Positions 23,058 through 37,321 of a stretch of DNA of 39,767 nucleotides are shown here, in pieces. This stretch comes from an uncultured Eubacteriales bacterium (GTDB lineage: Bacteria; Bacillota; Clostridia; Oscillospirales; Oscillospiraceae): positions 1 to 39,767 of the forward strand of contig CASEOA010000016.1 of assembly GCA_949289455.1 (NCBI GenBank). Direction: 5' to 3'. Position 1 is the first letter of the stretch. Each line of letters opens with the position of its first letter. The notes under the pieces are model-generated. The model searched no databases, had not been told where the DNA came from, and saw only the letters and a program-made list of their open reading frames with translations. The position numbers and the translations under genes are program-made.

Positions 23058-24224
23058 TCAGCACATTTTTTCCTTCAGGTGGCTCAGCCGGTCCAGAGCC
23101 TCCACCAGGGTCTCGTCGGTCTTGGCGAAGTGGAGCCGGATGATGTTCTGCACGTCCTCCTTGAAGAAGGAGGTGCCGGGCACGGCGGCCACCCCCACCT
23201 TGGCCGTCATCTCCTCGCAGAACTCCACGTCGGTCTGGCCCTTTTTCAGGTAGGGGGCGATGTCGGCCAGCACGAAGTAGGTGCCCTGGGGATCGGTGAA
23301 GGGGATGCCGATGTCCCGCAGGCCGTTGGTAAAGAGGTCCTTCATGTGGGTGTAGTGGGCCCCGAACTCCTCATAGTAGCTGTCGGGCATCTCCAGGCCC
23401 ACGATGGCGGCCTCCATCAGGGGGGAGGCCACCCCCACGGCGTTGAAGTCGTGGTACTGCTTGATCTTGTCCATGATGGGCTTGGGGGCCAGGGCGTAGC
23501 CCAGCCGCCAGCCGGTAACCGAGTAGGTCTTGGACAGGGAGGAGCAGGAAATGGTGCGCTCCCACATGCCGGGCATGTTGCACATGTACAGGTGCTTGTG
23601 GGGGGCGTAGACAATGTGCTCGTATACCTCGTCCATGATGGCGTACACGTCGTACTTGACGCACAGCTGGGCGATGAGCTTCAGCTCTTCCTCGGTGAAC
23701 ACCTTGCCGCTGGGGTTGGAGGGATTGCAGATGAGGATGGCCTTGGGGTGCTGCTTGAAGGCGTCCTCCAGCACGTTGGGGTCGAAGCCGAAGGCGGGGG
23801 GCACCAGGGGGACGAACACCGGCTCGCAGTCGGCGAAGAGGATCTGGGCCTGATAGTTCTCAAAGTAGGGGGAGAAGAGCACCACCTTGTCCCCCGGGTT
23901 GGTGACGGCGAAGATGGCGTCCACCATGGCCTCGGTGGAGCCGATGGTCACCACCATTTCGGTGTCCGGGTCAAAATCCCGGCCCATGAACCGCTTGCAC
24001 TTGCGGGCCAGGGCCTGGCGGAAGTTGGGGGCGCCCATGGTGATGGGGTACTGGTGGGGGCCCTCGTAGGCCACCTGGGCCAGACGGTCCAGCATGGCCT
24101 TGGGGGGGTCAAAGTCGGGGAAGCCCTGGGCCAGGTTGATGGCGTCATGGGCGATGGCCACCCGGGTCATCCTGCGGATGACGGACTCGGTAAAAAATTC
24201 CGTCTTTTTGCTCAAAGGCTGCAT
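23058..24224 (-). CDS. Class I pyridoxal-phosphate aminotransferase (likely aromatic)
   Basis: A 388-residue cytosolic fold-type I aminotransferase. The PLP lysine is K232 in SSLSKTYSVTGWRLGYA. Upstream motifs include NLAQGFPDFDPP, PNFRQAL, the NPSNPSGKV loop and MDEVYEHIVY (the PLP-binding Asp/Tyr pair). Length and motifs fit the aspartate/aromatic/methionine class I family. It is the last gene of the ior operon, 18 bases after the ACT gene. That points to interconversion of arylpyruvates with Phe, Tyr or Trp, donor probably glutamate. The strand and context indicate control by the Phe T-box far upstream. Substrate specificity cannot be read from sequence alone. Confidence 0.9.
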   Translation of the reverse strand: MQPLSKKTEFFTESVIRRMTRVAIAHDAINLAQGFPDFDPPKAMLDRLAQVAYEGPHQYPITMGAPNFRQALARKCKRFMGRDFDPDTEMVVTIGSTEAMVDAIFAVTNPGDKVVLFSPYFENYQAQILFADCEPVFVPLVPPAFGFDPNVLEDAFKQHPKAILICNPSNPSGKVFTEEELKLIAQLCVKYDVYAIMDEVYEHIVYAPHKHLYMCNMPGMWERTISCSSLSKTYSVTGWRLGYALAPKPIMDKIKQYHDFNAVGVASPLMEAAIVGLEMPDSYYEEFGAHYTHMKDLFTNGLRDIGIPFTDPQGTYFVLADIAPYLKKGQTDVEFCEEMTAKVGVAAVPGTSFFKEDVQNIIRLHFAKTDETLVEALDRLSHLKEKMC

Positions 24225-24242
24225 AGGGTGTTACCTCTCATT

Positions 24243-24680
24243 TCATTCGTTCTCAATGCCCAGCTCGCCGTGGAGGGCGGGGGGCATCCCGTTGTCCTTC
24301 AGCAGGGTGGCCAGCCGGTCCAGGTTGGCCACCCGGAAGATCATGCAGGCCCGGTCCTGGACCTGGCCGAACACGGAGTAGACGTACTCAATGTCGATAT
24401 TTTCGTTGGCCAGCAGGGTGAGGATCTTTCCCAGGGCCCCCGGCTCGTCGGGCACCACCACCGCCAGCACCGGGGTCATGGACAGCACAAACCCGTGCTC
24501 CAGCAGCAGGGAGGCCGCCTTCTGGGGCTTGTCCACGATCATACGCAGCACGCCGTAGTCGCTGGTCTCGGCGATGTGGAGGGCCCGCATGTTGATCTGG
24601 TTGTCGGCCAGAATGGTGGTAATCTCCGCCAGCTGCCCGGCCCGGTTTTCCAGGAATACGGAAATCTGTTGGATCGTCAT
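24243..24680 (-). CDS. Tandem ACT-domain protein
   Basis: A 145-residue protein with two ACT domains (about 1-68, starting TIQQISVFLENRAGQLAEIT, and about 70-140, starting LAVVVPDEPGALGKIL). ACT domains bind amino acids and act as sensors. Proteins of this type commonly sit next to phenylacetate-CoA ligase genes in anaerobes. Its strong ribosome site AAAGGAGG overlaps the stop of the upstream ligase gene, so translation is probably coupled. It likely senses an aromatic amino acid and modulates the ligase or the aminotransferase; that partner assignment is inference. Confidence 0.88.
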   Translation of the reverse strand: MTIQQISVFLENRAGQLAEITTILADNQINMRALHIAETSDYGVLRMIVDKPQKAASLLLEHGFVLSMTPVLAVVVPDEPGALGKILTLLANENIDIEYVYSVFGQVQDRACMIFRVANLDRLATLLKDNGMPPALHGELGIENE

Positions 24681-24695
24681 ATGCTTGCTCCTCCT

Positions 24696-25997
24696 TTAAA
24701 TCTTCCGCTTGTCGATGACCCGGACGGCCTTGCCCTCGGAGCGGGTGATGGACTTGGGGGCCACCAGCCGCACCTTGGCGTAGATGCCCAGCATGGCCTT
24801 CAGGGCGGCCACCACCTGCTTCTCCTTCTCGGCCACCTGGCTCAGCTGGTCGGAGAACATCTCCGGGGTCATCTCCACCAGCACCTCCATGGTGTCGGTG
24901 TTGTTCACCCGGTCCACGATGATCTGATAGTTGGGGGCAAAGCTCTGGCCCATGAGGACGGTCTCGATCTGGGACGGGAACACGTTGACGCCCTTGATGA
25001 TAAGCATGTCGTCGCTGCGGCCCATGGGCTTGCTCATCTTGATGTGGGTGCGGCCGCAGGGGCAGTCCTCGTGGCGGAGCACGCAGATGTCCCGGGTGCG
25101 GTAGCGCAGCAGGGGGAAGGCATCCTTGGTGATGGAGGTAAACACCAGCTCGCCCATGGAGCCCTCGGGGAGCACCTCCCCGGTGTCCGGGTCGATGATC
25201 TCGGCGATGAAGTGGTCCTCGTTGATGTGCATACCGGTCTGGGCGGAGCACTCGAAGGACACGCCGGGGCCGGACAGCTCGGTGAGGCCGTAGATGTCGT
25301 AGGCCTTGATGCCCAGGGTCTTTTCGATGTCCCGGCGCATCTCCTGGCTCCAGGCCTCGGCGCCGAAGATGCCCGCCTTCAGGGGGATCTCCTCCGGGGT
25401 CATGCCCATCTCCTTCATGCTCTCGGCCAGATAGGCGGCGTAGGAGGGGGTGCAGCACAGGATGGTGGCGTTCAGGTCCCGGATGAACATGATCTGCCGC
25501 TCGGTGTTGCCCGAGGAGGTGGGGATGGTGAGGCAGCCCACCTTGTGGGAGCCGCCGTTGAGGCCGGGGCCGCCGGTGAACAGGCCGTAGCCGTAGCTCA
25601 CCTGGCACACGTCCTCATTGGTGCCGCCGGCGGCCACGATAGCCCGGGCGCAGCAGTCCTCCCACAGGTCGATGTCGTGCTGGGTGTAGAAGGCCACCAC
25701 CCGCTTGCCGGTGGTGCCCGAGGTGGACTGGATGCGCACGCAGTCCTTCAACGGCTTGCCCATGAGGCCGTAGGGGTAGGCCTCCCGCAGGTCGTCCTTG
25801 GACAGGAAGGGCAGCTTGTGCAGGTCCTCCACGCTCTTGATATCGGCGGGGGTCAGGCCCTTCTCCTCCATCTTCTTGCGGTAGTAGGGCACGCTGTCCC
25901 ACACATGCTGCACCTGCTTCACCAGGCGCTCGTTCTGCCAGGCCAGGATCTGCTCCCGGCTGGCGCACTCAATCTCGGGCTGATAATAACGTTCCAT
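24696..25997 (-). CDS. paaK: Phenylacetate-CoA ligase family
   Basis: A 433-residue adenylate-forming ligase: arylacetate + ATP + CoA gives arylacetyl-CoA + AMP + PPi. It has the family P-loop (QSTSGTTGKRVVAFYT, near residue 87), the YGLTELSGPG motif (near 235) and the hinge region DMLIIKGVNVFPSQIE. CPCGRTH in the middle resembles a metal-binding loop seen in PaaK proteins of anaerobes. Length is normal for PaaK. It lies between iorB and an ACT gene, the usual setting in anaerobes that interconvert arylpyruvates and aryl-CoA. With IorAB it can either conserve energy from arylpyruvate oxidation or activate phenylacetate or indoleacetate for resynthesis of amino acids. The upstream T-box favours the second. 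Confidence 0.92.
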   Translation of the reverse strand: MERYYQPEIECASREQILAWQNERLVKQVQHVWDSVPYYRKKMEEKGLTPADIKSVEDLHKLPFLSKDDLREAYPYGLMGKPLKDCVRIQSTSGTTGKRVVAFYTQHDIDLWEDCCARAIVAAGGTNEDVCQVSYGYGLFTGGPGLNGGSHKVGCLTIPTSSGNTERQIMFIRDLNATILCCTPSYAAYLAESMKEMGMTPEEIPLKAGIFGAEAWSQEMRRDIEKTLGIKAYDIYGLTELSGPGVSFECSAQTGMHINEDHFIAEIIDPDTGEVLPEGSMGELVFTSITKDAFPLLRYRTRDICVLRHEDCPCGRTHIKMSKPMGRSDDMLIIKGVNVFPSQIETVLMGQSFAPNYQIIVDRVNNTDTMEVLVEMTPEMFSDQLSQVAEKEKQVVAALKAMLGIYAKVRLVAPKSITRSEGKAVRVIDKRKI

Positions 25998-26037
25998 ATC
26001 AGGTCGTTTCCTTTCCTCTTCTGTCTCACAGGGGGGC

Positions 26038-26607
26038 TCAGGCCCGGCCCAGGCTGAACGCCTTCTGGTTCATCTCCAGGAATTTGGCGGGGACGCTCTT
26101 TTCAATGGCGGCGTGCCAGTCGTCCTCGCTGATGTCAAAGTAACGGCTCAGCCGGCCCATGAGCACCAGGTTCACCGCCTTGCTGGAGCCGGCCTCCTCC
26201 GCCAGGCCCAGGGCGTCAAAGGCGTCCACCTGGATGCCCAGCCCGGCCATTTTCTCCGCCAGCTGCTGGGGATACTGGGCGGCGCCGGTGATGACGGGCA
26301 TGGGGTTGATCTGCTGGGTGTTGGTGACGATCCGCCCCCCCTGCTTCAAATACTCAGTCCACCGGGCGGCCTCCAGCAGCTCAAAGGATACGATGAAGTC
26401 GGCCTCCCCCTTGTCGATGATGGGGGAATAGACCTTGTCGCCGAAGCGGACGTAGGTGACCACGCTGCCCCCCCGCTGGCTCATGCCGTGGACCTCGGAC
26501 ACCTTTACGTCGTAGCCCTTGTCCAGCAGCAGACGGCCAAGCAGTTTGCTGGCCAGCAGGGAGCCCTGGCCTCCCACGCCCACGATCATGATATTTTTCG
26601 TTTCCAT
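26038..26607 (-). CDS. iorB: Indolepyruvate:ferredoxin oxidoreductase, beta subunit
   Basis: A 189-residue subunit of the family fused as the gamma domain in other 2-oxoacid:ferredoxin oxidoreductases. Characteristic motifs are VGVGGQGSLLASKLLG at the N-terminus and HGMSQRGGSVVTYVRFG. With IorA it forms the enzyme that interconverts arylpyruvate + CoA + oxidised ferredoxin and arylacetyl-CoA + CO2 + reduced ferredoxin. It starts 12 bases after the iorA stop, which supports co-expression in equal amounts. Length matches known IorB (about 190-200). Confidence 0.93.
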   Translation of the reverse strand: METKNIMIVGVGGQGSLLASKLLGRLLLDKGYDVKVSEVHGMSQRGGSVVTYVRFGDKVYSPIIDKGEADFIVSFELLEAARWTEYLKQGGRIVTNTQQINPMPVITGAAQYPQQLAEKMAGLGIQVDAFDALGLAEEAGSSKAVNLVLMGRLSRYFDISEDDWHAAIEKSVPAKFLEMNQKAFSLGRA

Positions 26608-26619
26608 ATGGGTACCTCC

Positions 26620-28359
26620 TCACGCCTGGGGCGCCCCGAGGGCGTCAACGGGACACAGCTGCTGGCACACGCCGCAGCCCACGCACAGGGTGTTGTCCAC
26701 CCGGGCCTTGCCCTCCACGATGGAGATGGCCGGGCAGCCGATCTTCATGCAGCTCTTGCAGCCCACGCACTTGCCGGTATCCACCGTCAGGGGGGCCTTG
26801 TGCTTCACATATTTCAGCAGGGCGCAGGGCCGGCGGGAGATGATCACCGAGGGCTCCGCCGCCGCCAGCTCCTCCTTCACCGCGTCCTCGCACTCTTTCA
26901 GGTTGTAGGGGTCCACCACCCGCACCCGGCGGATACCCACGCTGCGGCACAGGGACTCCAGGTCGATCTTGGTGCAGGGGTCGCCCTTCAGATTGTAGCC
27001 GGTGGTGGGGTTCTGCTGGTGGCCGGTCATGCCGGTAATGGAGTTGTCCAGGATGATAACGGTGGAGTTGGACTCATTGTAGGCGATGTTGATAAGGCCG
27101 GTGACGCCGGAATGCATGAAGGTGGAGTCGCCGATCACCGCCACGGTCTTGCCCTCCATGGCTCCGCCGCTGGCCTTGTTGAAGCCGTGGAGGCCGGACA
27201 CCGAGGCCCCCATGCAGATGGTGGTGTCGATGGCCGCCAGGGGGGGCACCGCCCCCAGGGTGTAGCAGCCGATGTCCCCCAGCACGGTGAGCTTCAGTTT
27301 ATTTAAGGTGTAGAACAGGCCCCGGTGGGGACAGCCGGCGCACATCACCGGCGGACGGGCGGGGATGGGTTCCGGCAGGACGGCGCCCACGTCGGGGGCC
27401 TTGCCCAGCTGGGCGGCCACAATGTTCTGGTTGAGCTCGTCGATGAGGGAGAAGAGCTCCTTGCCCTTCACGGACAGGCCCAGCTCCTTGCAGTGGGTCT
27501 CAATGAAGCCGTCCAGCTCCTCCACCACCACCAGCTGGTCCACCGAGGCGGCGAAGTCCCGGATTTTCTGCTCCGGCATGGGCCAGATCATCCCCAGCTT
27601 GAGCACCGGGTAGGTGTCCCCCAGGGCCTCCTTCACATACTGATAGCTGGTAGAGGAGGTGATAATGCCCATGGACTTGTCCTTGCCCGCCTCAATCCGG
27701 TTGAGGGGGGTGGTCTCGGCGTAGGCGATGAGGGCCTTTGTGCGCTCTTCCACCACCGGGTGGCGGCGCTTGGCGTTGCCCGGCATCATGATGTACTTGG
27801 CCCCGTTCTTCTCATAGGGCTTCTCCGGCGGGGTAATCCGCTCCGCCGGTTCCACCACGCTCTGGGAGTGGGCCACCCGGGTGCACATTTTCAGCAGCAC
27901 CGGGGTGTCGAATTCCTCCGACAGGTCGTAGGCCAGCTTGGCCATAGCCAGGCCCTCGGCGGAGTCGGCGGGCTCCAGCATGGGGATCTTGGATGAGCGG
28001 GCGTAATGGCGGGAGTCCTGTTCGTTCTGGGAGGAGTGCATCCCGGCGTCGTCGGCCACGGCGATCACCATGCCGGCGTTGACGCCGGTGTAGCCGATGG
28101 TGAAGAGAGGGTCGGCGGCCACGTTGAGGCCCACATGCTTCATGCCGCAGAAGGACCGCTTGCCCGCCAGGCAGGCGCCGAAGGCGGACTCCATGGCCAC
28201 CTTCTCGTTGGGGGCCCACTCCGCGTAGACCTCCGGGTATTTGGCAATGGCCTCGGTGATCTCGGTGCTGGGGGTGCCGGGATAGCTGGAGACAAAGGCG
28301 CAGCCCGCCTCGTACAGGCCCCGGGCCACAGCCTCATTGCCAAGCATCAGGGTTTTCAT
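26620..28359 (-). CDS. iorA: Indolepyruvate:ferredoxin oxidoreductase, alpha subunit
   Basis: A 579-residue catalytic subunit. The start at 28359 (MKTLMLGNEAVARGLYEAGC) has GGAGG seven bases upstream. A longer in-frame reading to 28473 runs back through the T-box terminator and is rejected. Domains: pyrimidine-binding domain at about 5-180 (SSYPGTPSTEI), linking domain, TPP-binding domain at about 350-500 with VLGDIGCYTLG and GDSTFMHSG...N, and a C-terminal ferredoxin domain at about 528-575 with two 4Fe-4S sites (CVGCKSCMKIGCP and CVGCGVCQQLCP). It oxidises, or reductively makes, indole-, phenyl- or hydroxyphenylpyruvate. It is the first gene under the Phe-type T-box, so expression should rise when charged tRNA-Phe is scarce. 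Confidence 0.95.
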   Translation of the reverse strand: MKTLMLGNEAVARGLYEAGCAFVSSYPGTPSTEITEAIAKYPEVYAEWAPNEKVAMESAFGACLAGKRSFCGMKHVGLNVAADPLFTIGYTGVNAGMVIAVADDAGMHSSQNEQDSRHYARSSKIPMLEPADSAEGLAMAKLAYDLSEEFDTPVLLKMCTRVAHSQSVVEPAERITPPEKPYEKNGAKYIMMPGNAKRRHPVVEERTKALIAYAETTPLNRIEAGKDKSMGIITSSTSYQYVKEALGDTYPVLKLGMIWPMPEQKIRDFAASVDQLVVVEELDGFIETHCKELGLSVKGKELFSLIDELNQNIVAAQLGKAPDVGAVLPEPIPARPPVMCAGCPHRGLFYTLNKLKLTVLGDIGCYTLGAVPPLAAIDTTICMGASVSGLHGFNKASGGAMEGKTVAVIGDSTFMHSGVTGLINIAYNESNSTVIILDNSITGMTGHQQNPTTGYNLKGDPCTKIDLESLCRSVGIRRVRVVDPYNLKECEDAVKEELAAAEPSVIISRRPCALLKYVKHKAPLTVDTGKCVGCKSCMKIGCPAISIVEGKARVDNTLCVGCGVCQQLCPVDALGAPQA

Positions 28360-28417
28360 CGCTGTTCCTCCTTCTCCCCCGCCTGGGGCGGGAGGGTGAT
28401 AGTATCGGTGGCAGAAC

Positions 28418-28692
28418 AAAAAAGTCCTCTGCAAGAAAGCCTTGCAGAGGACGAGAACTTCCCGTGGTACCACCTCAGTTTACCGCCAACGGCGGCCTCG
28501 GGGGATGCTTCAATATCCCCGGCGCTGTAACGGGCGCCCCCGTCGCTGCTTACTGCCGGGCATACCCGGTTCGGCAGGCCGCTCAGGAAGGAATTCGGGA
28601 CGGGCCTCCCGCTGCCTCGCACCGGCCGGCAGCTCTCTGGGGGGAGCAACCCCTTCCCTACTTGGTTCCGTCATCGCGTTGCAATATGGATG
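28418..28692 (-). promoter_or_regulatory. T-box leader, TTC (Phe) specifier
   Basis: Minus-strand leader of iorA. Stem I begins with GCGATGACGG...AAGTAGGG. The specifier region reads GAA-TTC-CTTCCTGAG, with TTC at 28593-28591, aligning with the T-box consensus GAA-NNN-ACTCCCGAG. The T-box sequence GGTGGTACCACGG (28474-28462) contains TGGT, which pairs with an ACCA tRNA end, right for tRNA-Phe (A73). The competing terminator is a 12-bp stem, CTTGCAGAGGAC type (28452-28424), followed by TTTTTT. Uncharged tRNA-Phe should stabilise the antiterminator and switch the ior operon on. Confidence 0.92.
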
Positions 28693-28698
28693 GAAATA

Positions 28699-28727
28699 AC
28701 TCTACCACTTTTATGTGCTAAAGTCAA
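28699..28727 (-). promoter_or_regulatory. Promoter of the Phe T-box / ior operon
   Basis: TTGACT (28727-28722), a 17-bp spacer and TAGAGT (28704-28699), just downstream of the symporter stop. The whole 29-bp element differs at one position from the promoter of the Tyr T-box at 32450-32478. Confidence 0.75.
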
Positions 28728-28752
28728 TGGCCTTTCGGGAAGTTTTGTAAAA

Positions 28753-30342
28753 TTAAGCCTTGCGTTTTTTGGACTTTTTGGAGCGGGCCTCCCCCTGGCG
28801 GCCGATGGAGTCCTTCACGGTGACGGTGACGGTGCGCTCATAGCAGGCGAAAATGGACTCAATTTCCTGGCTGGAGGGGGCCTTGGACACCAGGCTCACC
28901 ACCGGCACCAGCACCAGCCCCGCCAGCATACAGAAGGCGCCGCAGTTGATGGGGGATTGGAGAATAGCGGGGAAGGATTTGCCGAAAAAGATGTTGGCCA
29001 GCATCACCACGGTGGAAAACAGGAAGCTGACCATGCAGGCCGGTTTGGTGACCCGCTTCCAGTACAGGCCGTAGAGGAAGGGGGCCAGGAAGGCCCCGGC
29101 CAGGGCGCCCCAGGACACGCCCATAAGCTGGGCGATAAAGGTGACGTTGCTGGTATACTGGATGATGGCCAGCACCACGCTGATGGCGATGAACACCACC
29201 ACCAGGACCCGCATCCACCGCACCTGCCGCTTTTCGTCCATCTCCTTGATGAGGTTGCCCTTGATAAAGTCCAGGGTGAGGGTGGAGGAGGAGGCCAGCA
29301 CCAGGGAGCTGAGGGTGGACATGGAGGCGGAGAGCACCAGGATCACCACCACGGCGATGAGCACCGCCGGCAGACCGGAGAGCATGGTGGGGATGATGGA
29401 GTCGTAGCCTCCGGCGGCCACCGCCTCGGGGGTGGAGAACAGCCGGCCGAAGCCCCCCAGGAAGTAGCAGCCTCCGGCCACCACCACGGCAAAGGCGGTG
29501 GACACCACCATGCCGGTGTTGATGGATTTTTCGCTTTTGATGGCGTAGAATTTCTGCACCATCTGGGGCAGGCCCCAGGTGCCCAGGCTGGTGAGGAGGA
29601 CCACACCCAGCAGGTTCACCGGGTCGGGGCCGAAGAAGGAGGCGAACACGCCGGGGGTCTCGGAGGTGGCGGGGTCGCTGACCCGGGCCAGCCCGTCCAG
29701 GGCGGCCAGGAAGCCCCCCTGGCTGTTGAGCACCGCGGCAATGACGGCAATGATGCCGAAAATCATGATGATGCCCTGGATAAAGTCGTTGATGGCGGTG
29801 GCCATGTATCCTCCGGCGATGACATAGATGCCGGTGAGCACCGCCATGACCACCACGCACACGGCGTAGTCGATGTCAAAGGCCATGGCAAACAGGCGGC
29901 TCAGGCCGTTGTACAGGCTGGCGGTGTAGGGGATGAGGAAAATAAAGATGATCACCGAGGCGGTGAGCTTCAAAGACCGGCTGTGGAAGCGCTTGCCGAA
30001 GAATTCCGGCATGGTGGCGCTGTCCAGGTGCTGGGTCATGACCCGGGTGCGGCGGCCCAGCACCGCCCAGGCCAGCAGGGAGCCCAGAAAGGCGTTGCCC
30101 AGCCCCGCCCAGGTGGCGGCGATGCCGTATTTCCAGCCGAACTGACCGGCGTAGCCCACAAAGACCACGGCGGAAAAATAGCTGGTGCCGTAGGCGAAGG
30201 CGGTGAGCCAGGGGCCCACCGACCGGCCCCCCAGCACAAAGCCGTTGACGTCGGTGGTGTGGCGGCGGCAGTACAGCCCGATGCCCACCATCACCGCGAA
30301 AAACACCACCAGCATGGAGCCCTTGATGACCATATCTCTCAT
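28753..30342 (-). CDS. Sodium:solute symporter (SSF family)
   Basis: A 529-residue inner-membrane protein with about 13 hydrophobic segments and the SSF hallmarks: GGRSVGPWLTAFAYGTSYFS near the N-terminus, YxxVYxGGYMATAINDFIQG-type sequence (IYVIAGGYMATAINDFIQGI) and LASSSTLTLDF. Length and layout fit the SLC5/PutP-PanF-like family, which imports carboxylates, amino acids or vitamins with Na+. It is the second gene after the Tyr T-box, behind an acyl-CoA ligase, and lies just upstream of the Phe T-box operon. A role in aryl-acid uptake (phenylacetate, hydroxyphenylacetate) is a reasonable inference; short-chain carboxylates are the main alternative. No terminator follows, so transcripts may run into the Phe T-box. 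Confidence 0.9.
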   Translation of the reverse strand: MRDMVIKGSMLVVFFAVMVGIGLYCRRHTTDVNGFVLGGRSVGPWLTAFAYGTSYFSAVVFVGYAGQFGWKYGIAATWAGLGNAFLGSLLAWAVLGRRTRVMTQHLDSATMPEFFGKRFHSRSLKLTASVIIFIFLIPYTASLYNGLSRLFAMAFDIDYAVCVVVMAVLTGIYVIAGGYMATAINDFIQGIIMIFGIIAVIAAVLNSQGGFLAALDGLARVSDPATSETPGVFASFFGPDPVNLLGVVLLTSLGTWGLPQMVQKFYAIKSEKSINTGMVVSTAFAVVVAGGCYFLGGFGRLFSTPEAVAAGGYDSIIPTMLSGLPAVLIAVVVILVLSASMSTLSSLVLASSSTLTLDFIKGNLIKEMDEKRQVRWMRVLVVVFIAISVVLAIIQYTSNVTFIAQLMGVSWGALAGAFLAPFLYGLYWKRVTKPACMVSFLFSTVVMLANIFFGKSFPAILQSPINCGAFCMLAGLVLVPVVSLVSKAPSSQEIESIFACYERTVTVTVKDSIGRQGEARSKKSKKRKA

Positions 30343-30508
30343 TGCCGTATTCCCTCATTTCCTTTGGCGCGGAGCCGAAAATTGGCCGAAACTGGAGATT
30401 GTTCCCGCTATTTTGGGGGGCCAAGGGCGCAAAAACCAGGCCTCCCGGGAAAACGCCTCCCGCGGGGATGAATCTCCTATCTTCTATTTCCCAACTCCTC
30501 ACTGGAGT

Positions 30509-32146
30509 TTAGCTGTTGTTCTGTACCTCTACCAGCCGGCCGGAGCAGTACCGCTCCCGGAGCACCGGCTTTTCGATTTTGCCGGTGGGGTTGCGGGGCA
30601 CCTTGTCAAAGATGACCTTCCGGGGCCGCTTGTACCGGGGCAGCTCCTTGCAAAAGGAATTGATCTCCTCCTCGGTGCAGGAGACCCCCTCCTTGACCTG
30701 GATGATGGCGGCGGCGATCTCCCCCAGCCGCTTGTCGGGCAGGCCGATGACGGCGGCGTCGCTGATCTTGTCGTTCTTGCGCAAAAAGTCCTCGATCTGC
30801 ACCGGGTAGATGTTCTCGCCCCCGGAGATGATCACGTCCTTTTTCCGGTCCACCAGGTAGATGAAGCCCTCCTCGTCCTGGCGGGCCATGTCGCCGGTGT
30901 ACAGCCACTCCCCCTTCAGCACCTCCTCGGTGGCCTTGGGGTTTTTATAGTAGCACTGCATGACGCCGGGGCCCTTCACCGCCAGCTCCCCCACGTCTCC
31001 GGGGGTGACGTCCTTGCCCTGGTCGTCCACAATGCGGGCCTCCCACAGGTAGCCCGGCTTGCCGATGGCCCCCACCTTGCGGATGTTTTCCACCCCCAGG
31101 TGGACGCACCCCGGGCCGATGGACTCGCTGAGGCCGTAGTTGGTGTCGTACTGGTGGTGGGGGAAGATCTTCTGCCACCGGTGGATCAGGCTGGGAGGCA
31201 CCGGCTGGGCGCCGATGTGCATCAGCCGCCACTGGTCCAGGTAGTAGTGGTCCAAATCCACCCGGCCGCTGTCAATGGCGTCCAGAATATCCTGAGCCCA
31301 GGGCACCAGCAGCCAGACAATGGTGCACTTTTCCTCGGTAATGGCCCGGAGAATCCACTCGGGCTTCACGTCCCGCAGCAGCACCGCCTTGCCTCCGCTG
31401 GCAAGGGAGCCGAACCAGTGCATCTTGGCCCCGGTGTGGTAGAGGGGCGGGATGCACAGGAACACGTCCTGCCGGGTCTGGCCGTGGTGGCGCTGCTCGG
31501 TAAGGGCGGAGCAGTACAGGGCCCGGTGGTTGTGGAGGATGGCCTTGGGGAAGCCGGTGGTGCCAGAGGAGAAGTAGATGGCGGCGTAGTCGGCCTCGTC
31601 CAGGGCCACCGGCGGGGCGCTGGAGGAGCAGAAGCCCATGAGCTTGCAGCAGTCCTCGGCGTAATCCGGCTTGTTGGGCCCCACGAAGAACATCATCTTG
31701 ACCTGGGGCAGCTGGCGGGCGATGGGGTCCATCCGGCCGATGAACTCGGGGCCAAAGACCAGTACCTCCACATCGGCCAGCTCCAGGCAGTATTTGATCT
31801 CGTCGGTGGAGTAGCGGAAGTTCAGCGGCACCGCCAGGCAGCCCGCCTTCAGAGCGCCAAAGTAGATGGGCAGCCACTCCAGGCAGTTCATCAGCAGGAT
31901 GCCCACCTTGGCCCCCCGCTCCACCCCCCGGCTCAGCAGCAGGTTGGCAAACCGGTTGGCCCGGCTGTCAAAGTCCCGCCAGCTCAGCTCCCGGCGGTAG
32001 GGGGCGTTGGGATTGGTGCTCTGGATCAGGCTGAAATCCCGCCAGGTCACCGCCTTGTCCCGCTCCTCCGAGGGGGTGATCTCCACCAGGGCTGTGTCCG
32101 CGCCGTACAGCCGGGCGTTGCGCTCCAACAGTTCCGTTATGACCAT
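30509..32146 (-). CDS. AMP-dependent acyl/aryl-CoA ligase
   Basis: A 545-residue adenylate-forming enzyme of the FadD/4CL type: acid + ATP + CoA gives acyl-CoA + AMP + PPi. Motifs: P-loop YFSSGTTGFPKAILHNH near residue 189, YGLSESIGPG, the GELAVKGPGVM stretch, YTGDMARQDEEGFIYLVDRK (adenine-binding and hinge), and the catalytic lysine region RNPTGKIEKPVLRERY at the C-terminus. SD AAAGGAGAG precedes the ATG. It is the first gene after the Tyr T-box and precedes a symporter by 166 bases with no terminator. The Tyr-responsive leader makes an aryl acid such as 4-hydroxyphenylacetate a likely substrate; family signatures alone cannot separate this from fatty or other aromatic acids. Confidence 0.88.
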   Translation of the reverse strand: MVITELLERNARLYGADTALVEITPSEERDKAVTWRDFSLIQSTNPNAPYRRELSWRDFDSRANRFANLLLSRGVERGAKVGILLMNCLEWLPIYFGALKAGCLAVPLNFRYSTDEIKYCLELADVEVLVFGPEFIGRMDPIARQLPQVKMMFFVGPNKPDYAEDCCKLMGFCSSSAPPVALDEADYAAIYFSSGTTGFPKAILHNHRALYCSALTEQRHHGQTRQDVFLCIPPLYHTGAKMHWFGSLASGGKAVLLRDVKPEWILRAITEEKCTIVWLLVPWAQDILDAIDSGRVDLDHYYLDQWRLMHIGAQPVPPSLIHRWQKIFPHHQYDTNYGLSESIGPGCVHLGVENIRKVGAIGKPGYLWEARIVDDQGKDVTPGDVGELAVKGPGVMQCYYKNPKATEEVLKGEWLYTGDMARQDEEGFIYLVDRKKDVIISGGENIYPVQIEDFLRKNDKISDAAVIGLPDKRLGEIAAAIIQVKEGVSCTEEEINSFCKELPRYKRPRKVIFDKVPRNPTGKIEKPVLRERYCSGRLVEVQNNS

Positions 32147-32174
32147 GGTAACTCTCCTTTACTTCTGTAAATGC

Positions 32175-32443
32175 AAAAAAATCGTCCTCTGCCTGTGCAG
32201 AGGACGAGAACATTCCCGTGGTACCACCTCAATTTGCCGCGGTTACGGCCTCATGGGGCCGGGTGAGCCCCCGCGCGGTATCGGGCGCACCCGTCGCCGC
32301 CTACTGGGGGACACCCCGTTGGGCGGGCCGCTCGGGAGGGTATTGGGCGGCGGCCTCCCCTCCTGCCTCGCACCGGCCGGCAGGTCTCTGAAGGGGATGA
32401 TCCGGGCCTACTTGGCTCCGTCATCGCGTTGCTGTGATTGATG
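32175..32443 (-). promoter_or_regulatory. T-box leader, TAC (Tyr) specifier
   Basis: Minus-strand leader of the acyl-CoA ligase gene. Stem I starts GCGATGACGGAGCCAAGTAG. The specifier region reads CAA-TAC-CCTCCCGAG with TAC at 32342-32340, in exact register with TTC in the Phe leader. The T-box sequence GAGGTGGTACCACGG (32230-32216) carries TGGT, matching a tRNA with A73, as tRNA-Tyr has. The terminator stem CGTCCTCTGC (32206-32183, four-base loop) is followed by a T-run. It should turn on the ligase and symporter when tRNA-Tyr is uncharged. Confidence 0.92.
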
Positions 32444-32449
32444 TGCTAC

Positions 32450-32478
32450 ACTCTACCACTTTTAAGTGCTAAAGTCAA
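32450..32478 (-). promoter_or_regulatory. Promoter of the Tyr T-box operon
   Basis: TTGACT (32478-32473), a 17-bp spacer holding the palindrome CACTTAAAAGTG, and TAGAGT (32455-32450). It lies just past the thioesterase stop and is nearly identical to the promoter at 28699-28727. Confidence 0.75.
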
Positions 32479-32487
32479 GGGGATATT

Positions 32488-32898
32488 TTACTTTTTTGCC
32501 GGCGGTGTGGTATAGCCGTTGACCACAAAGTGGGCCACCTGGGTGCCCAGCTCGTCGGTCACTGTAACCTGGTACAGGCAGGTGGTCCGCCCCGCCTTGA
32601 GGCAGTCCGCCCGGGCGGTGAGGGTGTCCCCCCGAGCGGGGGAGAGGAAGGTCACCGATACTTGCCGGGTCACCGTCATGCTGTCGCTGTGGCCGTTGGC
32701 CGCCACGGCAAAGGCAAAGTCGGCCAGGGTAAAGATGGCGCCCCCCATGGGCACGTTGTTGATGTTGCGGTGAACCGGCTGGAGGACCATGGAGCAGACG
32801 GCGTGGCCGGGGGCGGCCTCGTCGATCACCGCCCCGGCGGCCTGGGTGGCGAACCGGTCGGAGGCAAAGCGGGCGCGGATCTGGTCAAGGTCGGGCAT
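32488..32898 (-). CDS. PaaI-type hotdog thioesterase
   Basis: A 136-residue hotdog-fold acyl-CoA thioesterase of the PaaI family. The core motif HRNINNVPMGGAIFTLADFA (with the conserved N/G and D/A positions) is present, and length fits. These enzymes hydrolyse aryl-CoA or phenylacetyl-CoA derivatives and can free trapped CoA. It precedes the Tyr T-box unit on the same strand and is functionally linked to the two aryl-CoA ligases by location. SD AAAAGGAG lies before the start. The gap to the araR terminator is only about 30 bases and holds no clear promoter, so it may rely on read-through. Confidence 0.88.
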   Translation of the reverse strand: MPDLDQIRARFASDRFATQAAGAVIDEAAPGHAVCSMVLQPVHRNINNVPMGGAIFTLADFAFAVAANGHSDSMTVTRQVSVTFLSPARGDTLTARADCLKAGRTTCLYQVTVTDELGTQVAHFVVNGYTTPPAKK

Positions 32899-32969: not shown

Positions 32970-34031
32970 TCAGCTGCTCTGCCGTTCAATGAGGAACCAG
33001 GGGGCCACCTCGGAGGTGCACTCCTCCCCCCGCAGCCGCCGTATCAGCAGCTCGGCGGCCATCTGTCCCACGTTGTAGTCCCCGTGGGACAGGGAGGTAA
33101 TGCCGATGGGGGACAGCTCGCTGTACTGGCTGTTGTCGAAGCTGACCACCGCCATGTCCTTGGGGATGCGGATGCCCCTTTTCAGCAGGTAGGAGATGAG
33201 CCGGGAGGCCACCTCGTCGTTGTAGCACACCACGGCGGTGCAGCTGCCGATGACCCGATCCACCGCCGCCCAGGACTCGTCGTTGTCCAGCAGGTCCCCC
33301 TTGCTCTCGGTGTTGTACCAGTAGACCTGCTGGTCCTCCAGTGGGAGGCCCAGGTCCCGCAGGGCGTCGGCGTAGCCGGCGTACCGCTGGAGGCCCTGGA
33401 TGTCGTCGTTTTTGAAGATGCCGGCCATGGCCCGGTGGCCTTTCCGGTAGAGGTACTCCACCAGCTGCCGGCCGCCGCCGTAGTTGTCGTCCAGTACCGA
33501 CAGGGAGCCGGGCAGCCGGTTATAATCCCCGTGCATGAACACCAGGGGGATACCGGCGTCGATCAGGCTCTGGTACAGATCCAGGTTGGGGTTGGGCAGG
33601 CCGGTCTTGCTCCCCTCCACCAAAATGCCGTCGGGCCGCACCCCATCCAGCAGGGACTGGAGGATGCGCCGCTCGGTGGACACCTGGTTCTGCGTGGAGA
33701 ATAAGGTGGGGGCGGCATTGTTGGCGGCCAGCACGGTTTCGATCTCCCGGAGGATGGAGGGAAAGATATAGTTGCTGATGTAGGTGGTCACCACCGCCAC
33801 GGTGAGCCGGCGGGGGGTCCCCTGTTCCAGAATGTGGGAACCGCTGCCCTGCCGGCGCTCAATGAGCTTCTCGCTGGCCAGAAGGGACAGGGCCTGGCGG
33901 ACGGTCTGGCGGCTGACCTGGAACTGTTGGCACAGGGCCTGCTCCGTGGGCAGCAGCATGGTATCCTCATAGAGGCCGTTCTGAATGGCGGCCCGCAGAC
34001 TGTCCGCCACGGCCTGATATTTGTGCTGCAT
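32970..34031 (-). CDS. araR: AraR-like arabinose repressor (GntR HTH + LacI-type sensor)
   Basis: A 353-residue regulator. The start at 34031 (MQHKYQAVADSLRAAIQNG) follows a GAGGTGGAG site; upstream in-frame extensions lack support. Residues about 1-70 are a GntR-type winged helix (LCQQFQVSRQTVRQALSLL, RQGSGSHI). Residues about 80-350 are a LacI/periplasmic-binding-protein sensor domain (PDGILVEGSKTG, VVCYNDEVASRLISYLLKRG, MAVVSFDNSQYS). This fusion is the AraR architecture of Firmicutes, in which L-arabinose releases the repressor from DNA. It is divergent from an ABC sugar importer followed by araA, and AraR-like operators occur in both promoters, which supports the symbol. Confidence 0.9.
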   Translation of the reverse strand: MQHKYQAVADSLRAAIQNGLYEDTMLLPTEQALCQQFQVSRQTVRQALSLLASEKLIERRQGSGSHILEQGTPRRLTVAVVTTYISNYIFPSILREIETVLAANNAAPTLFSTQNQVSTERRILQSLLDGVRPDGILVEGSKTGLPNPNLDLYQSLIDAGIPLVFMHGDYNRLPGSLSVLDDNYGGGRQLVEYLYRKGHRAMAGIFKNDDIQGLQRYAGYADALRDLGLPLEDQQVYWYNTESKGDLLDNDESWAAVDRVIGSCTAVVCYNDEVASRLISYLLKRGIRIPKDMAVVSFDNSQYSELSPIGITSLSHGDYNVGQMAAELLIRRLRGEECTSEVAPWFLIERQSS

Positions 34032-34114
34032 ATGCTCCACCTCGCAGTATGGAAAGAGTGGGCCGGCGGCGGGAACAGACAAAAGCTCCGGTCGTCTGCC
34101 GTTACTATGAGGTA

Positions 34115-34143
34115 AGCATAGCATATTTGTATGTAGCCTGCAA
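34115..34143 (-). promoter_or_regulatory. araR promoter with internal operator-like site
   Basis: TTGCAG (34143-34138), a 17-bp spacer and TATGCT (34120-34115). The sequence at 34125-34140, ATTTGTATGTAGCCTG on the plus strand, matches 10 of 16 positions of the Bacillus AraR operator ATTTGTACGTACAAAT as I recall it, and lies in the spacer, consistent with autorepression. Confidence 0.55.
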
Positions 34144-34479
34144 GAGCAAATATCCAAAATTGTATTGGCGATGCGCCTGGCCCGGGAACCGGGTGTGGGG
34201 TGGAAATAGTGGAAACATACTATACATTCTGGCAAAAATGCGGGAATTAAACTGCGGAAAATGATGGCACCTCCCATAACTCGTCAAAAAATGATCCAGA
34301 TGAATTGGGGAGAATGTGCAAAATCACTAAATACATTTTTTCTTTTAACTGTAATAAAAAGTTCACAATTTTCCAAAGAATGTGTAAATTATGAAATAAT
34401 ATTTAAAATACAATAAAAAAGATAGAATTTATTCTGGTCGATTTAGTTTAAATGTATTGTCGCAAACCTAGAAAGTTCA

Positions 34480-34495
34480 AATTGTTCGTACATCT
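34480..34495 (+). promoter_or_regulatory. AraR operator-like site
   Basis: AATTGTTCGTACATCT matches 12 of 16 positions of the Bacillus AraR operator ATTTGTACGTACAAAT (recalled, not searched). It ends two bases before the -35 box. A weaker match (9 of 16) lies at 34502-34517, two helical turns away, inside the promoter. Confidence 0.65.
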
Positions 34496-34497
34496 TG

Positions 34498-34525
34498 TTG
34501 ACATTTTCTGTACAAGGTATATACT
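34498..34525 (+). promoter_or_regulatory. Promoter of the sugar importer operon
   Basis: A consensus TTGACA (34498-34503), a 16-bp spacer and TATACT (34520-34525), followed by a leader of about 70 bases. The overlap with operator-like sequence suggests repression by AraR. Confidence 0.8.
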
Positions 34526-34599
34526 TACAGGCAAGGAGCCTTCGGGCTCAAGCCATCGGCCCATCTGGGGCCGGACAATTTGAAATGGAGGAATTTGGC

Positions 34600-35709
34600 A
34601 TGAAGAAGAAACTGCTTGCTCTGCTCCTTGCTCTGGGCATGGGCGCTTCCCTGGCCGCCTGCGGCGGCGGCGGTGGTACCACCCAGACCCCCGCCGGCGG
34701 TGAGAGCACTCCCCCCGCCAGCACCGAGACCACCCCCGCCGGCGGCGAGGAGACCACCCCCGCTACTTCCGGCGAGGTGATCACCGTTGGCTTCGCTCAG
34801 GTGGGCCACGAGTCCGACTGGCGTACCGCTTCCACCAAGTCCGCTCAGGACGTGTTCTCCGCTGAGAACGGCTATGAGCTGTCCTTTGTGGACTGCGACA
34901 ACGACTCCGCCGCTCAGCTGGAGGCTGTCCGTAACTTCATCCAGCAGGGTGTGGACTACATCATCATCGACCCCATCGTTGCCACTGGCTGGGACGCCGT
35001 CCTGACCGAGTGTGAGGATGCCGGCATCCCCGTCATCGTCATTGACCGTACCATCGACGACTCCGACAAGTACGTCTCCTGGGTCGGCTCCGACTTTAAG
35101 GTTGAGGGTCTGGCCTGCGGCGAGTGGCTGAAGGCCTATGCTGCCGACAAGGGCATCACCGAGATCAACGCCCTGGTCATCGAGGGCTCCGTGGGCGCCT
35201 CCGCCACCATCGGCCGTACCGACGGCTTCAAGGAGATCGCTGACCGCGAGGGCTGGACCATCCTCGACTCCCAGTCCGGTGACTTCACCGAGGCTGGCGG
35301 CCAGGAGGTTATGGAGTCCTACTGCCAGAGCTATGCCGGCCAGTTCAACGTGGTCATCTGCCAGAACGATAACGAGGCCGCCGGCGCCATGACCGCCATG
35401 GACAACGCTGGCGTCACCTACGGCGTGGACGGCGACGTGATCCTGGTGTCCTTCGACGCCAACAAGCCCTATGTCCAGATGGTCATGGAAGGCAAGATCA
35501 ACGCCAACTTCGAGTGCAACCCCATGGCTGCCCCCACCGTTGCTGAGATCATCCAGCAGCTGGAGGCCGGCGAGACTCCCGAGAAGGAGATCTACGTTTC
35601 CGAGTCCTGGTTCGTGGCCGAGGATAACGTGACCACCATCACCGTCAACGGCGAGGAGCAGGAGTGCATCTACGTCACCCAGGAAGTCCTGGATGCCCGT
35701 CCCTACTAA
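34600..35709 (+). CDS. YtfQ-like sugar-binding lipoprotein of an ABC importer
   Basis: A 369-residue lipoprotein. ATG at 34600 follows GGAGGAA and gives a lipoprotein signal, MKKKLLALLLALGMGASLAA before C21. A Thr/Pro/Gly-rich linker runs to about residue 60. The rest is a LacI-family periplasmic-binding fold: VGFAQVGHESDWRTAS, VATGWDAVLTECEDAGIPVI, DRTIDD, GSVGASATIGRTDGF and SQSGDFTEAGGQEVMESY. These stretches closely parallel E. coli YtfQ, the galactofuranose-binding protein. With AraR and AraA beside it, L-arabinose in its furanose form is the best guess for the ligand. A hairpin terminator after the gene fits higher expression than the transport subunits. Codon use is very C-rich, as in highly expressed genes. 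Confidence 0.9.
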   Translation: MKKKLLALLLALGMGASLAACGGGGGTTQTPAGGESTPPASTETTPAGGEETTPATSGEVITVGFAQVGHESDWRTASTKSAQDVFSAENGYELSFVDCDNDSAAQLEAVRNFIQQGVDYIIIDPIVATGWDAVLTECEDAGIPVIVIDRTIDDSDKYVSWVGSDFKVEGLACGEWLKAYAADKGITEINALVIEGSVGASATIGRTDGFKEIADREGWTILDSQSGDFTEAGGQEVMESYCQSYAGQFNVVICQNDNEAAGAMTAMDNAGVTYGVDGDVILVSFDANKPYVQMVMEGKINANFECNPMAAPTVAEIIQQLEAGETPEKEIYVSESWFVAEDNVTTITVNGEEQECIYVTQEVLDARPY

Positions 35710-35745
35710 GACCGGTCCTCAACTGAATCGGCAGCAAGCATCCCC

Positions 35746-35782
35746 AGGGAGGACCCCCGGTAATTCCCGGGTCCTCCCTTTT
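35746..35782 (+). terminator. Intercistronic hairpin after the binding-protein gene
   Basis: AGGGAGGACCC (35746-35756) is perfectly complementary to GGGTCCTCCCT (35769-35779) and is followed by TTTT. It probably works as a partial terminator or mRNA-stabilising stem, lowering ATPase and permease output relative to the binding protein. Confidence 0.8.
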
Positions 35783-35800
35783 GATTTCGAGGTGATAGTT

Positions 35801-37321
35801 TTGGAAGATAACATCGTTCTGACCGCGCGGGGCATCTGTATGACCTTCCCCGGGGTAAAAGCCCTGGAAAATGTGGACTTCACCCTCCGCCGGGGTGAGA
35901 TTCACGCCCTGATGGGGGAAAACGGAGCGGGTAAGTCCACCCTCATCAAGTGCCTGACCGGCATCAACGACTTTGAGGCCGGCGAAATCCGGGTAGCCGG
36001 CATCGACGGTCCGGTGAAAAACCGCAACACCCAGGACGCCCAGAAGGTGGGCATCTCCACCGTGTACCAAGAGGTCAACCTCTGCCCCAACCTGAGCGTG
36101 GCGGAGAACCTGTACATCGGTCGGGAGCCTATGACCCCCTTCCACACCATCGACCGCCGGGCCATGAACAAGAAGGCCGACGAGCTGGTGAAGCGTCTGG
36201 ACATCAAGGTGGACGTTACCCAGAACCTGGAAAACTACTCCCTGGCCATCCAGCAGATGATTGCCATCGCCCGGGCGGTGGACATGGATTGTAAGGCCCT
36301 CATCCTGGACGAGCCCACCTCTTCCCTGGACGACACCGAGGTGGAGAAGCTCTTCAAGATGATGCTCCAGCTGAAGGAGCACGGGGTGGGTATCGTGTTT
36401 GTCACCCACTTCCTGGAGCAGGTGTACGCCGTGTGCGACCGGATCACCGTGCTGCGCAATGGTACCCTGGTGGGCGAGTATCCGGTGGCCGAGCTGCCCC
36501 GGGTGAAACTGGTGGCCGCCATGATGGGCAAGGACTTCGACGACCTGGCCTCCATCAAGCCCGAAGGCTTCACCTATGACGCCGAGGCTCCTCTGGAGAT
36601 CGAGGCCCGGGGCCTCAGCCACAAGGGTACCATCAAGCCCTTCGACCTGGACATCCACAAGGGCGAGGTCATCGGCCTCACCGGCCTGCTGGGCTCCGGC
36701 CGCAGCGAGCTGGCCCGGGCCATCTACGGCGCCGACAAGGCCCAGACCGGCACCCTGAAGGTGGGCGGCAAAGAGGCCAAGATCAACCAGCCCATCGACG
36801 CCATGAACCTGGGCATGGGCCTGCTGCCCGACGACCGTAAGGCCGAGGGCATCATCGGCGACCTGTCCGTCCGGGAGAACATCATCCTGGCCCTCCAGGC
36901 CAAGCGGGGCATGTTCAAGCAGCTGCCCCGGGCCAAGCAGGAGGAGATTGCCGACCGGTACATCGACCTGCTGCAAATCAAGACGGCCACCCGGGAGACC
37001 CCCATCAAGCAGCTCTCCGGCGGCAACCAGCAGAAGGCCATTCTGGCCCGGTGGCTGGCCACCGATCCCAGTTTCCTCATCCTGGACGAGCCCACCCGTG
37101 GTATCGACATCGGCACCAAGACCGAGATTCAGAAGCTCATCATCCAGCTGGCCGGCGAGGGCAAGAGCATTATGTTCATCTCCTCCGAGATCGAGGAGAT
37201 GCTGCGTACCTGCAACCGCATGGCGGTGCTGCGGGACGGCGCCAAGGTAGGCGAGCTGGACGGCGAGTTGACCCAGGAGCGGGTCATGGCCGCCATTGCG
37301 GGAGGTGCGAACGATGAGTAA
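35801..37321 (+). CDS. YtfR-like sugar ABC importer ATPase (two NBDs)
   Basis: A 506-residue cytosolic ATPase with two nucleotide-binding domains, the standard length for AraG/MglA/YtfR proteins. I chose TTG at 35801 because GAGG (35789-35792) lies eight bases upstream; an in-frame GTG at 35792 overlaps that site. The first NBD has Walker A GENGAGKSTL, an atypical signature (YSLAIQQMIAIARA) and Walker B ALILDEPTSSLDD. The second NBD has the degenerate GLLGSGRSELARAIYG, a normal LSGGNQQKAILARW and LILDEPTRGID. This pairing is typical of the family. Its stop overlaps the next ORF by eight bases. Confidence 0.92.
   Translation: MEDNIVLTARGICMTFPGVKALENVDFTLRRGEIHALMGENGAGKSTLIKCLTGINDFEAGEIRVAGIDGPVKNRNTQDAQKVGISTVYQEVNLCPNLSVAENLYIGREPMTPFHTIDRRAMNKKADELVKRLDIKVDVTQNLENYSLAIQQMIAIARAVDMDCKALILDEPTSSLDDTEVEKLFKMMLQLKEHGVGIVFVTHFLEQVYAVCDRITVLRNGTLVGEYPVAELPRVKLVAAMMGKDFDDLASIKPEGFTYDAEAPLEIEARGLSHKGTIKPFDLDIHKGEVIGLTGLLGSGRSELARAIYGADKAQTGTLKVGGKEAKINQPIDAMNLGMGLLPDDRKAEGIIGDLSVRENIILALQAKRGMFKQLPRAKQEEIADRYIDLLQIKTATRETPIKQLSGGNQQKAILARWLATDPSFLILDEPTRGIDIGTKTEIQKLIIQLAGEGKSIMFISSEIEEMLRTCNRMAVLRDGAKVGELDGELTQERVMAAIAGGANDE

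Follow-up and report, generated by a model that had tools for sequence, protein, structure and literature searches.

Serial tyrosine and phenylalanine T-box leaders before a probable aryl-acid assimilation module in an uncultured Oscillospiraceae bacterium

Introduction

Why should genes that handle aryl acids stand behind RNA switches that respond to the shortage of an amino acid? The question is raised by a 39,767-nucleotide stretch of DNA (contig CASEOA010000016.1, assembly GCA_949289455.1; hereafter the window) from an uncultured Eubacteriales bacterium of the Oscillospiraceae, probably an inhabitant of an animal gut. An initial annotation, made from the sequence of the window, placed two T-box leaders with Phe and Tyr specifiers before genes of aryl-acid metabolism instead of a tRNA synthetase or shikimate gene. 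According to passages in PMC2494555 and PMC3766115, T-box-controlled genes mostly help to charge, make or import the specifier amino acid; a Phe or Tyr T-box on a module containing indolepyruvate:ferredoxin oxidoreductase (IOR) therefore points to arylacetate assimilation. Taken as a whole, the locus is probably best explained by Tyr and Phe T-boxes that act in series to control an aryl-acid assimilation module.

Results

Scanning the whole window against Rfam at gathering thresholds returned a single match, to the T-box family RF00230, which covers the Phe leader at 28444–28683 (−) with a score of 102.4 bits (gathering 93, E = 1.1e-21) over all 219 model positions. A permissive rescan of 32050–32600 recovered the Tyr leader at 32197–32433 (−), with 77.3 bits (E = 4.7e-17) across model positions 1–219 of 219. 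The two same-strand leaders initially described are therefore upheld by full-length matches, and the assignment of both as T-boxes is near certain. Their promoters (28699–28727 for Phe and 32450–32478 for Tyr, both −) share the form TTGACT-17-TAGAGT and differ at one spacer base; that of the Tyr leader was read from the sequence as a consensus match only. The UGGU of the antiterminator bulge, at 28469–28472 (−) in the Phe leader and 32223–32226 (−) in the Tyr leader, matches A73 and is predicted, in the Tyr leader, to pair with the ACCA end of its tRNA. Intrinsic terminators, each a hairpin followed by a T run, lie at 28418–28452 (−) for Phe and 32175–32206 (−) for Tyr, with folding energies of −22.3 and −19.3 kcal/mol for the respective hairpins alone. 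The 5′ arm of each terminator hairpin doubles as the 3′ strand of the predicted antiterminator and, when each part and the whole were folded, the two structures were predicted to be mutually exclusive through a common CCUC strand. The −35 box of the Phe promoter stands 25 bases past the end of the sodium:solute symporter gene; transcripts from the Tyr promoter must therefore cross the Phe leader.

The specifiers, UUC (28591–28593, −) for Phe and UAC (32340–32342, −) for Tyr, were assigned from the RF00230 covariance alignment, from alignment with the pheS and tyrS leaders of the same genome, respectively, and from stem covariation; four checks of the register agree with this assignment, as initially annotated. 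The 3′ strands of the two specifier loops, GAA-UUC-C continuing into UUCC-UGAG (Phe) and CAA-UAC-C continuing into CUCC-CGAG (Tyr), align without gaps. It had been claimed that the leaders align base for base through this loop and differ only in the middle base; the codon difference and the gap-free stretch stand, but whole leaders, from promoter to terminator, are identical at only 241 of 292 aligned bases. Both loops are one base short of the RF00230 consensus, with the gap falling between GAA and the specifier. An RF00230 search of this genome gave 16 matches at E up to 1 (five over the cut-off), and three leaders whose genes were confirmed by NCBIfam served as controls: tyrS carries GAA-A-UAC-G and UGGU, pheS carries UUC-G and UGGU, and thrS carries ACC-A and UGGA. 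Covariation was assessed on an alignment of the tyrS and pheS leaders with 14 leaders of the iorA-operon group. Pairing holds in 94 of 94 cells for the six Stem I pairs tested, each of the four pairs in the stem adjoining the specifier changes on both sides, and sliding the partner by one to three columns lowers pairing to 32–52%; four of five covariation measures exceed nearly all shuffles. Two relatives have full-length specifier loops (L and a number denote loci, G and a number genomes of relatives), L043 with GAA-A-UUC-G and L065 with GAA-U-UAC-C, and both agree with UUC/UAC.

These data bear directly on a reading of the specifiers in another register, as Ser UCC and Thr ACC or as Ile AUU and AUA, which we consider very improbable. 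The shortened loop does yield UCC and ACC when counted from the GAA side, and one base further in L029 and L043 lie UCA and UCG, also Ser codons; however, the specifier-side stem covaries in a single register and the full-length loops of L043 and L065 support UUC and UAC. Among the tRNAs read in this genome (30 of 31 matches with a locus), tRNA-Phe(GAA) and tRNA-Tyr(GTA) both have A73, which bears out the claim that TGGT in the two antiterminators matches their discriminators. The four Ser tRNAs have G73 and the one Thr tRNA T73 (U73 in the RNA); UGGU is therefore unfit for either, and the thrS leader has UGGA in its place. As tRNA-Ile was not among the tRNAs read, Ile is excluded by register and not by the discriminator base; in the TBDB figures quoted from PMC7778990, AUU and AUA each make up 0.01 of Ile specifiers. 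The Ile register, which had been named initially as grounds for refutation, is thus contradicted by the own-genome controls, the stem covariation and the full-length loops, and the same evidence, joined by the discriminators, speaks against Ser and Thr.

The genes behind the leaders, all on the reverse strand, belong to the families initially named. The Tyr leader precedes an AMP-forming acyl-CoA ligase (30509–32146; PF00501 and PF13193, with NCBIfam PRK06187 below its cut-off) and a sodium:solute symporter (28753–30342; PF00474, SSF). The Phe leader precedes the alpha subunit of the indolepyruvate (arylpyruvate) oxidoreductase, IorA (26620–28362; TIGR03336, 700 bits, cut-off 650.9), followed by its beta subunit IorB (26038–26607; NF005325, 279.8 bits, cut-off 230), a PaaK-like AMP-forming arylacetate-CoA ligase (24696–25997; TIGR02155, 503.8 bits, below the cut-off of 646.3), a protein with a pair of ACT domains (24243–24680; PF19571, ACT_8) and a class I/II aminotransferase (23058–24224; PF00155). 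The best PDB matches of the PaaK-like protein (4r1l, 2y27 and 2y4o) are phenylacetate-CoA ligases; IorA gave no match to solved structures at E 1e-20. The range first noted, 28418–32443, spans both leaders, the ligase and the symporter, and the IOR part occupies 23058–28362. IOR, aryl-CoA ligase and aminotransferase thus occur together in the window. A PaaI-like hotdog thioesterase (32488–32898, −; PF03061, TIGR02286 below cut-off) is encoded directly upstream of the Tyr promoter, behind neither T-box.

Recurrence was examined in the best 80 IorA loci (1.27 Mb) from a scan of named bacterial and archaeal genomes, in which the best IorA matches come from records titled Avoscillospira, Oscillospiraceae and Clostridia. 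Compared by tblastn with the window proteins, relatives keep the order ligase, (symporter), IorA, IorB, PaaK and ACT protein. A Stem I model built from the leader alignment, which could miss divergent T-boxes, gave 18 matches in the 80 loci, 12 of them to members of its training set that match by construction. A T-box lies upstream of the ior operon in 15 of the 80 loci, and all 15 read Phe or Tyr: the specifier is UUC in L020, L021, L025, L029, L037, L040, L043, L046, L059, L069 and L070, and UAC in L031, L034, L050 and L065. The T-box stands directly before the ligase gene in 11 loci (L020, L021, L025, L031, L034, L037, L040, L043, L046, L050 and L065), directly before iorA in L029, and 508–720 bases upstream of iorA with one gene between in L059, L069 and L070. 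In 31 of the 80 loci the ligase gene precedes iorA in the same orientation, whether the symporter gene is present or not, and 11 of these 31 carry the T-box. The link between the aryl-acid module and Phe/Tyr T-boxes, as first proposed for this locus, therefore extends to other lineages; it recurs but is far from universal. Nine further IorA loci of relatives (L162–L170) gave no match to the Stem I model at E up to 1. Record titles name a ruminant gut site for 7 of the 15 T-box-bearing loci. The assignments of leaders, specifiers, terminators, gene families and recurrence all derive from sequence comparison.

Several side observations attach to these loci. Of the three remaining Stem I matches, the one in L063 is a Val leader ahead of a valS-like gene, and those in L055 and L061 are Trp leaders ahead of TrpB-like genes; genes and codons were assigned by eye, from their resemblance to the products of L001 and L010. 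At L055:14341–14572 and L061:3467–3677, a Trp (UGG) T-box accompanies a TrpB-like gene (by eye) that lies directly downstream of paaK and the ACT gene. A Trp-repressor-family gene (PF01371; L069:9654–9965) stands between the Phe T-box and iorAB in L069, and a similar gene, by eye, is present in L059 and L070. L065, with its Tyr T-box before the same ligase-ior operon, comes from a record titled uncultured Chloroflexi bacterium, and may reflect either transfer across phyla or a misassigned bin.

The Stem I matches in the 80 loci amount to one T-box per locus, usually before the ligase gene; two T-boxes in series with different specifiers were found only in this genome and in one close relative, G006. 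In a tree of the leaders, the Phe and Tyr leaders of these two genomes group with L050 (support 0.89), consistent with a local duplication after which one specifier changed. In the rest of the tree the two kinds of specifier are mixed, and several branches have weak support.

IorA is present in 11 of 20 genus genomes, two of which (this genome and G006) carry the T-box. In eight of the nine T-box-less genus mates, a promoter closely resembling that of the T-box leader and a terminator of the same type flank a conserved stretch of about 50 bases; the ninth locus, L104 (G016), shows neither T-box nor this mini-leader in the 112 bases next to a contig end. When 300 family genomes (six of the genus) were searched by pattern, the mini-leader core turned up in G004 and G015, already counted, and directly before iorA in G130 and G253 of one other genus, as well as in a chance-like match with two mismatches in G154. 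The mini-leader, about 90 bases long, is thus found upstream of iorA in ten genomes (L099–L103, L105–L107, L159 and L160). An Rfam scan of 14 T-box-less genus loci detected no T-box, giving one weak small-RNA match (30.5 bits, gathering 162), and RNAalifold found little covariation (1 of 31 pairs). By eye, the core sequence GUAGAGG could base-pair with CCUCUGC on the 5′ arm of the terminator to form a candidate antiterminator. In local alignments of the mini-leader with the Phe leader, shuffles scored as well in 0 of 500 cases for L099, 10 of 500 for L160 and 311 of 500 for L107. The mini-leader may possibly be a T-box-derived attenuator; the proposed derivation is weak and leans mainly on the common promoter and terminator. 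The ligase promoters of T-box-less genus mates (L110–L119) contain, in nine of ten cases by eye, CTTTAAAG within an inverted repeat in the −35/−10 spacer, a possible operator.

A parallel exists in the same genome, where an Ile T-box (GAA-G-AUC-A; leader L005:1501–1729) precedes a four-subunit 2-oxoacid:ferredoxin oxidoreductase with subunit order gamma-delta-alpha-beta (L150:3922–6939, −). The best models for its alpha and beta subunits are of pyruvate synthase, below their cut-offs. At E up to 1e-60, the gamma subunit occurs in 4 of 20 genus genomes, this one included; the AUC specifier is readable in three of the four (L154 and L156 besides the present genome), and in the remaining one a contig end truncates the locus.

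The remainder of the window holds a surface-protein cluster (81–21205), with SLH proteins, an LRR protein of the BspA type with VWA, one protein with a cohesin domain and one with a dockerin domain and Big_2 repeats. At 32970–39436, a hybrid regulator of GntR/LacI type is encoded divergently from a sugar ABC transporter (its ATPase and permeases recognized by eye), the binding protein of which resembles YtfQ, below cut-off.

Discussion

We propose that one operon is governed by two transcription-attenuating T-box riboswitches acting in series: tRNA-Tyr would read the first, which would control the acyl-CoA ligase and sodium symporter, and tRNA-Phe the second, which would control IorAB, PaaK, the ACT-domain protein and the aminotransferase. 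An uncharged tRNA would bind the specifier through its anticodon and UGGU through its ACCA end, and the antiterminator would form and transcription go on; with a charged tRNA, the hairpin and T run would end transcription. The module would import arylacetates, its ligases would activate them to CoA esters, and IOR with reduced ferredoxin would reductively carboxylate arylacetyl-CoA to arylpyruvates, to be transaminated to Phe and Tyr. We infer the tRNA response, the substrates and the direction of flow from the control elements and the genes together; control by shortage would fit the assimilation of aryl acids into Phe and Tyr better than their breakdown.

The RNAs have the features of canonical long Stem I transcriptional T-boxes (RF00230, as before tyrS and pheS): full length, specifier, Stem III, UGGU antiterminator and a competing terminator with T run. 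They depart from them in that 12 of the 14 leaders of the group lack one base in the specifier-loop strand and 12 of the 14 have C after the specifier; unlike the tyrS and pheS T-boxes, they control IOR/PaaK and ligase/symporter genes, with no synthetase or shikimate gene. The chemistry has precedents. IOR in reverse is attributed to methanogens in passages of PMC13285125 and of PMC4162585 (citing Porat et al.), the latter of which proposes an IOR-type enzyme leading from aryl acids towards amino acids; in contrast to that route, the module described here is bacterial, T-box controlled and accompanied by shikimate genes, and its flow is a proposed one. Formation of Phe from phenylacetic acid in rumen anaerobes (Allison 1965, known here by its title in the references of PMC7356843) resembles the chemistry proposed, whereas here it is a gene set and its control that are put forward. 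The HpdDEFG pathway of C. scatologenes, as outlined in PMC13285125, shares arylpyruvate:ferredoxin oxidoreductase chemistry, but uses a VOR-like enzyme with a phosphotransferase and kinase and forms ATP, whereas the window pairs IOR with AMP-forming ligases. The relevant passages of the same paper (2026) suggest that IOR beside such a ligase in Bacteroides may be biosynthetic because the ligase is AMP-forming, a case built on ligase energetics and likeness to methanogens.

A number of results weigh against the proposal and temper its strength. At the level of the RNA, the Tyr leader scores below the RF00230 gathering value, both window leaders have C directly after the specifier, at a position that usually holds a purine (a common but not absolute preference, according to PMC7583486), and the fifth shuffle measure, the number of further pair types, is not above shuffles. 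Of the 73 loci in which 350 or more bases precede the operon, 58 have no match to the Stem I model; nine of the 11 iorA-bearing genus genomes lack the T-box, and an aminotransferase gene is adjacent in only 6 of the 80 loci (by tblastn, with some loci cut by contig ends). In terms of chemistry, the IOR of B. thetaiotaomicron takes part in phenylacetate formation from Phe, according to work cited in a passage of PMC13285125, and the adjoining thioesterase gene, a neighbor of the operon in 9 of the 80 loci (with the same limit of tblastn and contig ends), could serve arylacetate release. Finally, the genome has chorismate synthase, prephenate dehydratase (PDT) and prephenate dehydrogenase and therefore need not rely on aryl acids, which rules out aryl-acid auxotrophy; chorismate synthase and PDT occur in all 20 genus genomes searched (this genome included), and prephenate dehydrogenase exceeds the family cut-off in 18 of the 20. 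In a set of 60 genomes, IorA was present in 7 of 8 PDT-less genomes at least 90% complete, against 17 of 33 PDT-bearing genomes (p = 0.11). Among 346 genomes of the order at the TIGR03336 cut-off, no enrichment without PDT was seen (27 of 45 against 168 of 301, p = 0.63), and IorA as a replacement for PDT is not borne out. The 27 of 45 were counted from printed E-values with the cut-off taken as near 1e-195, leaving out PDT-less G378, G399 and G437, whose strong IorA matches were judged just under it; the 45 comprise 20 listed genomes and 25 not among the positives. Because the PDT and shikimate genes are kept, IorA is not enriched and the thioesterase adjoins, we hold the assimilatory direction only as likely.

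Two further explanations accept the T-boxes and differ over the module. The ligase and symporter might handle another acid, such as a fatty acid, leaving only the IOR half to serve aromatic amino acids. Among NCBIfam models the ligase best fits a long-chain fatty-acid ligase subfamily (below cut-off), in the PDB it matches fatty acyl-CoA synthetases, and its gene is divergent from iorA in 16 of the 80 loci. Set against this, in 11 relatives a Phe/Tyr T-box comes directly before the ligase gene, which is followed by iorA in the same orientation, whether the symporter gene is present or not; we regard this division of the module as doubtful. Less probable still is an oxidative module in which Phe and Tyr are broken down to arylacetates for electron disposal or ATP, the T-boxes being inherited control or a means of redox balance. 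IOR is known in amino acid fermentation and in phenylacetate formation by B. thetaiotaomicron (from passages of PMC13285125), and the shikimate genes, the nearby thioesterase gene and the lack of IorA enrichment in genomes without PDT are all in keeping with breakdown. However, it makes little sense to induce breakdown of a scarce amino acid by its shortage, the specifier is Phe or Tyr at every one of the T-box-bearing loci, and a symporter together with AMP-forming ligases suggests inward flow.

By class the RNAs are ordinary T-boxes; as far as our searches reach, the regulated genes and the implication for IOR are new. A literature search that did not extend to supplements or to the two main T-box surveys (Vitreschak 2008 and Gutierrez-Preciado 2009) found no paper joining a T-box and specifier to phenylacetate, indolepyruvate or indolepyruvate oxidoreductase, and a search for papers with at least three of T-box, iorA, paaK and tRNA returned only PMC2700814, on a Geobacter genome, in which iorA appears 0 times. 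A broader and more tentative suggestion, which we think unlikely to hold in full, is that in gut Oscillospiraceae and their relatives T-boxes may mark an assimilatory ferredoxin-oxidoreductase branch (IOR with Phe/Tyr, the pyruvate-synthase type with Ile), and that in one genus the iorA T-box may have shrunk, with promoter and terminator kept, to a new attenuator of about 90 bases reading another signal.

On the direction of IOR in gut anaerobes, the recurrent Phe/Tyr T-boxes would provide independent, regulatory evidence for aryl-acid assimilation. Phenylacetate and 4-hydroxyphenylacetate are host-relevant metabolites, so their consumers, which may include the bacterium described here, matter as much as their producers.

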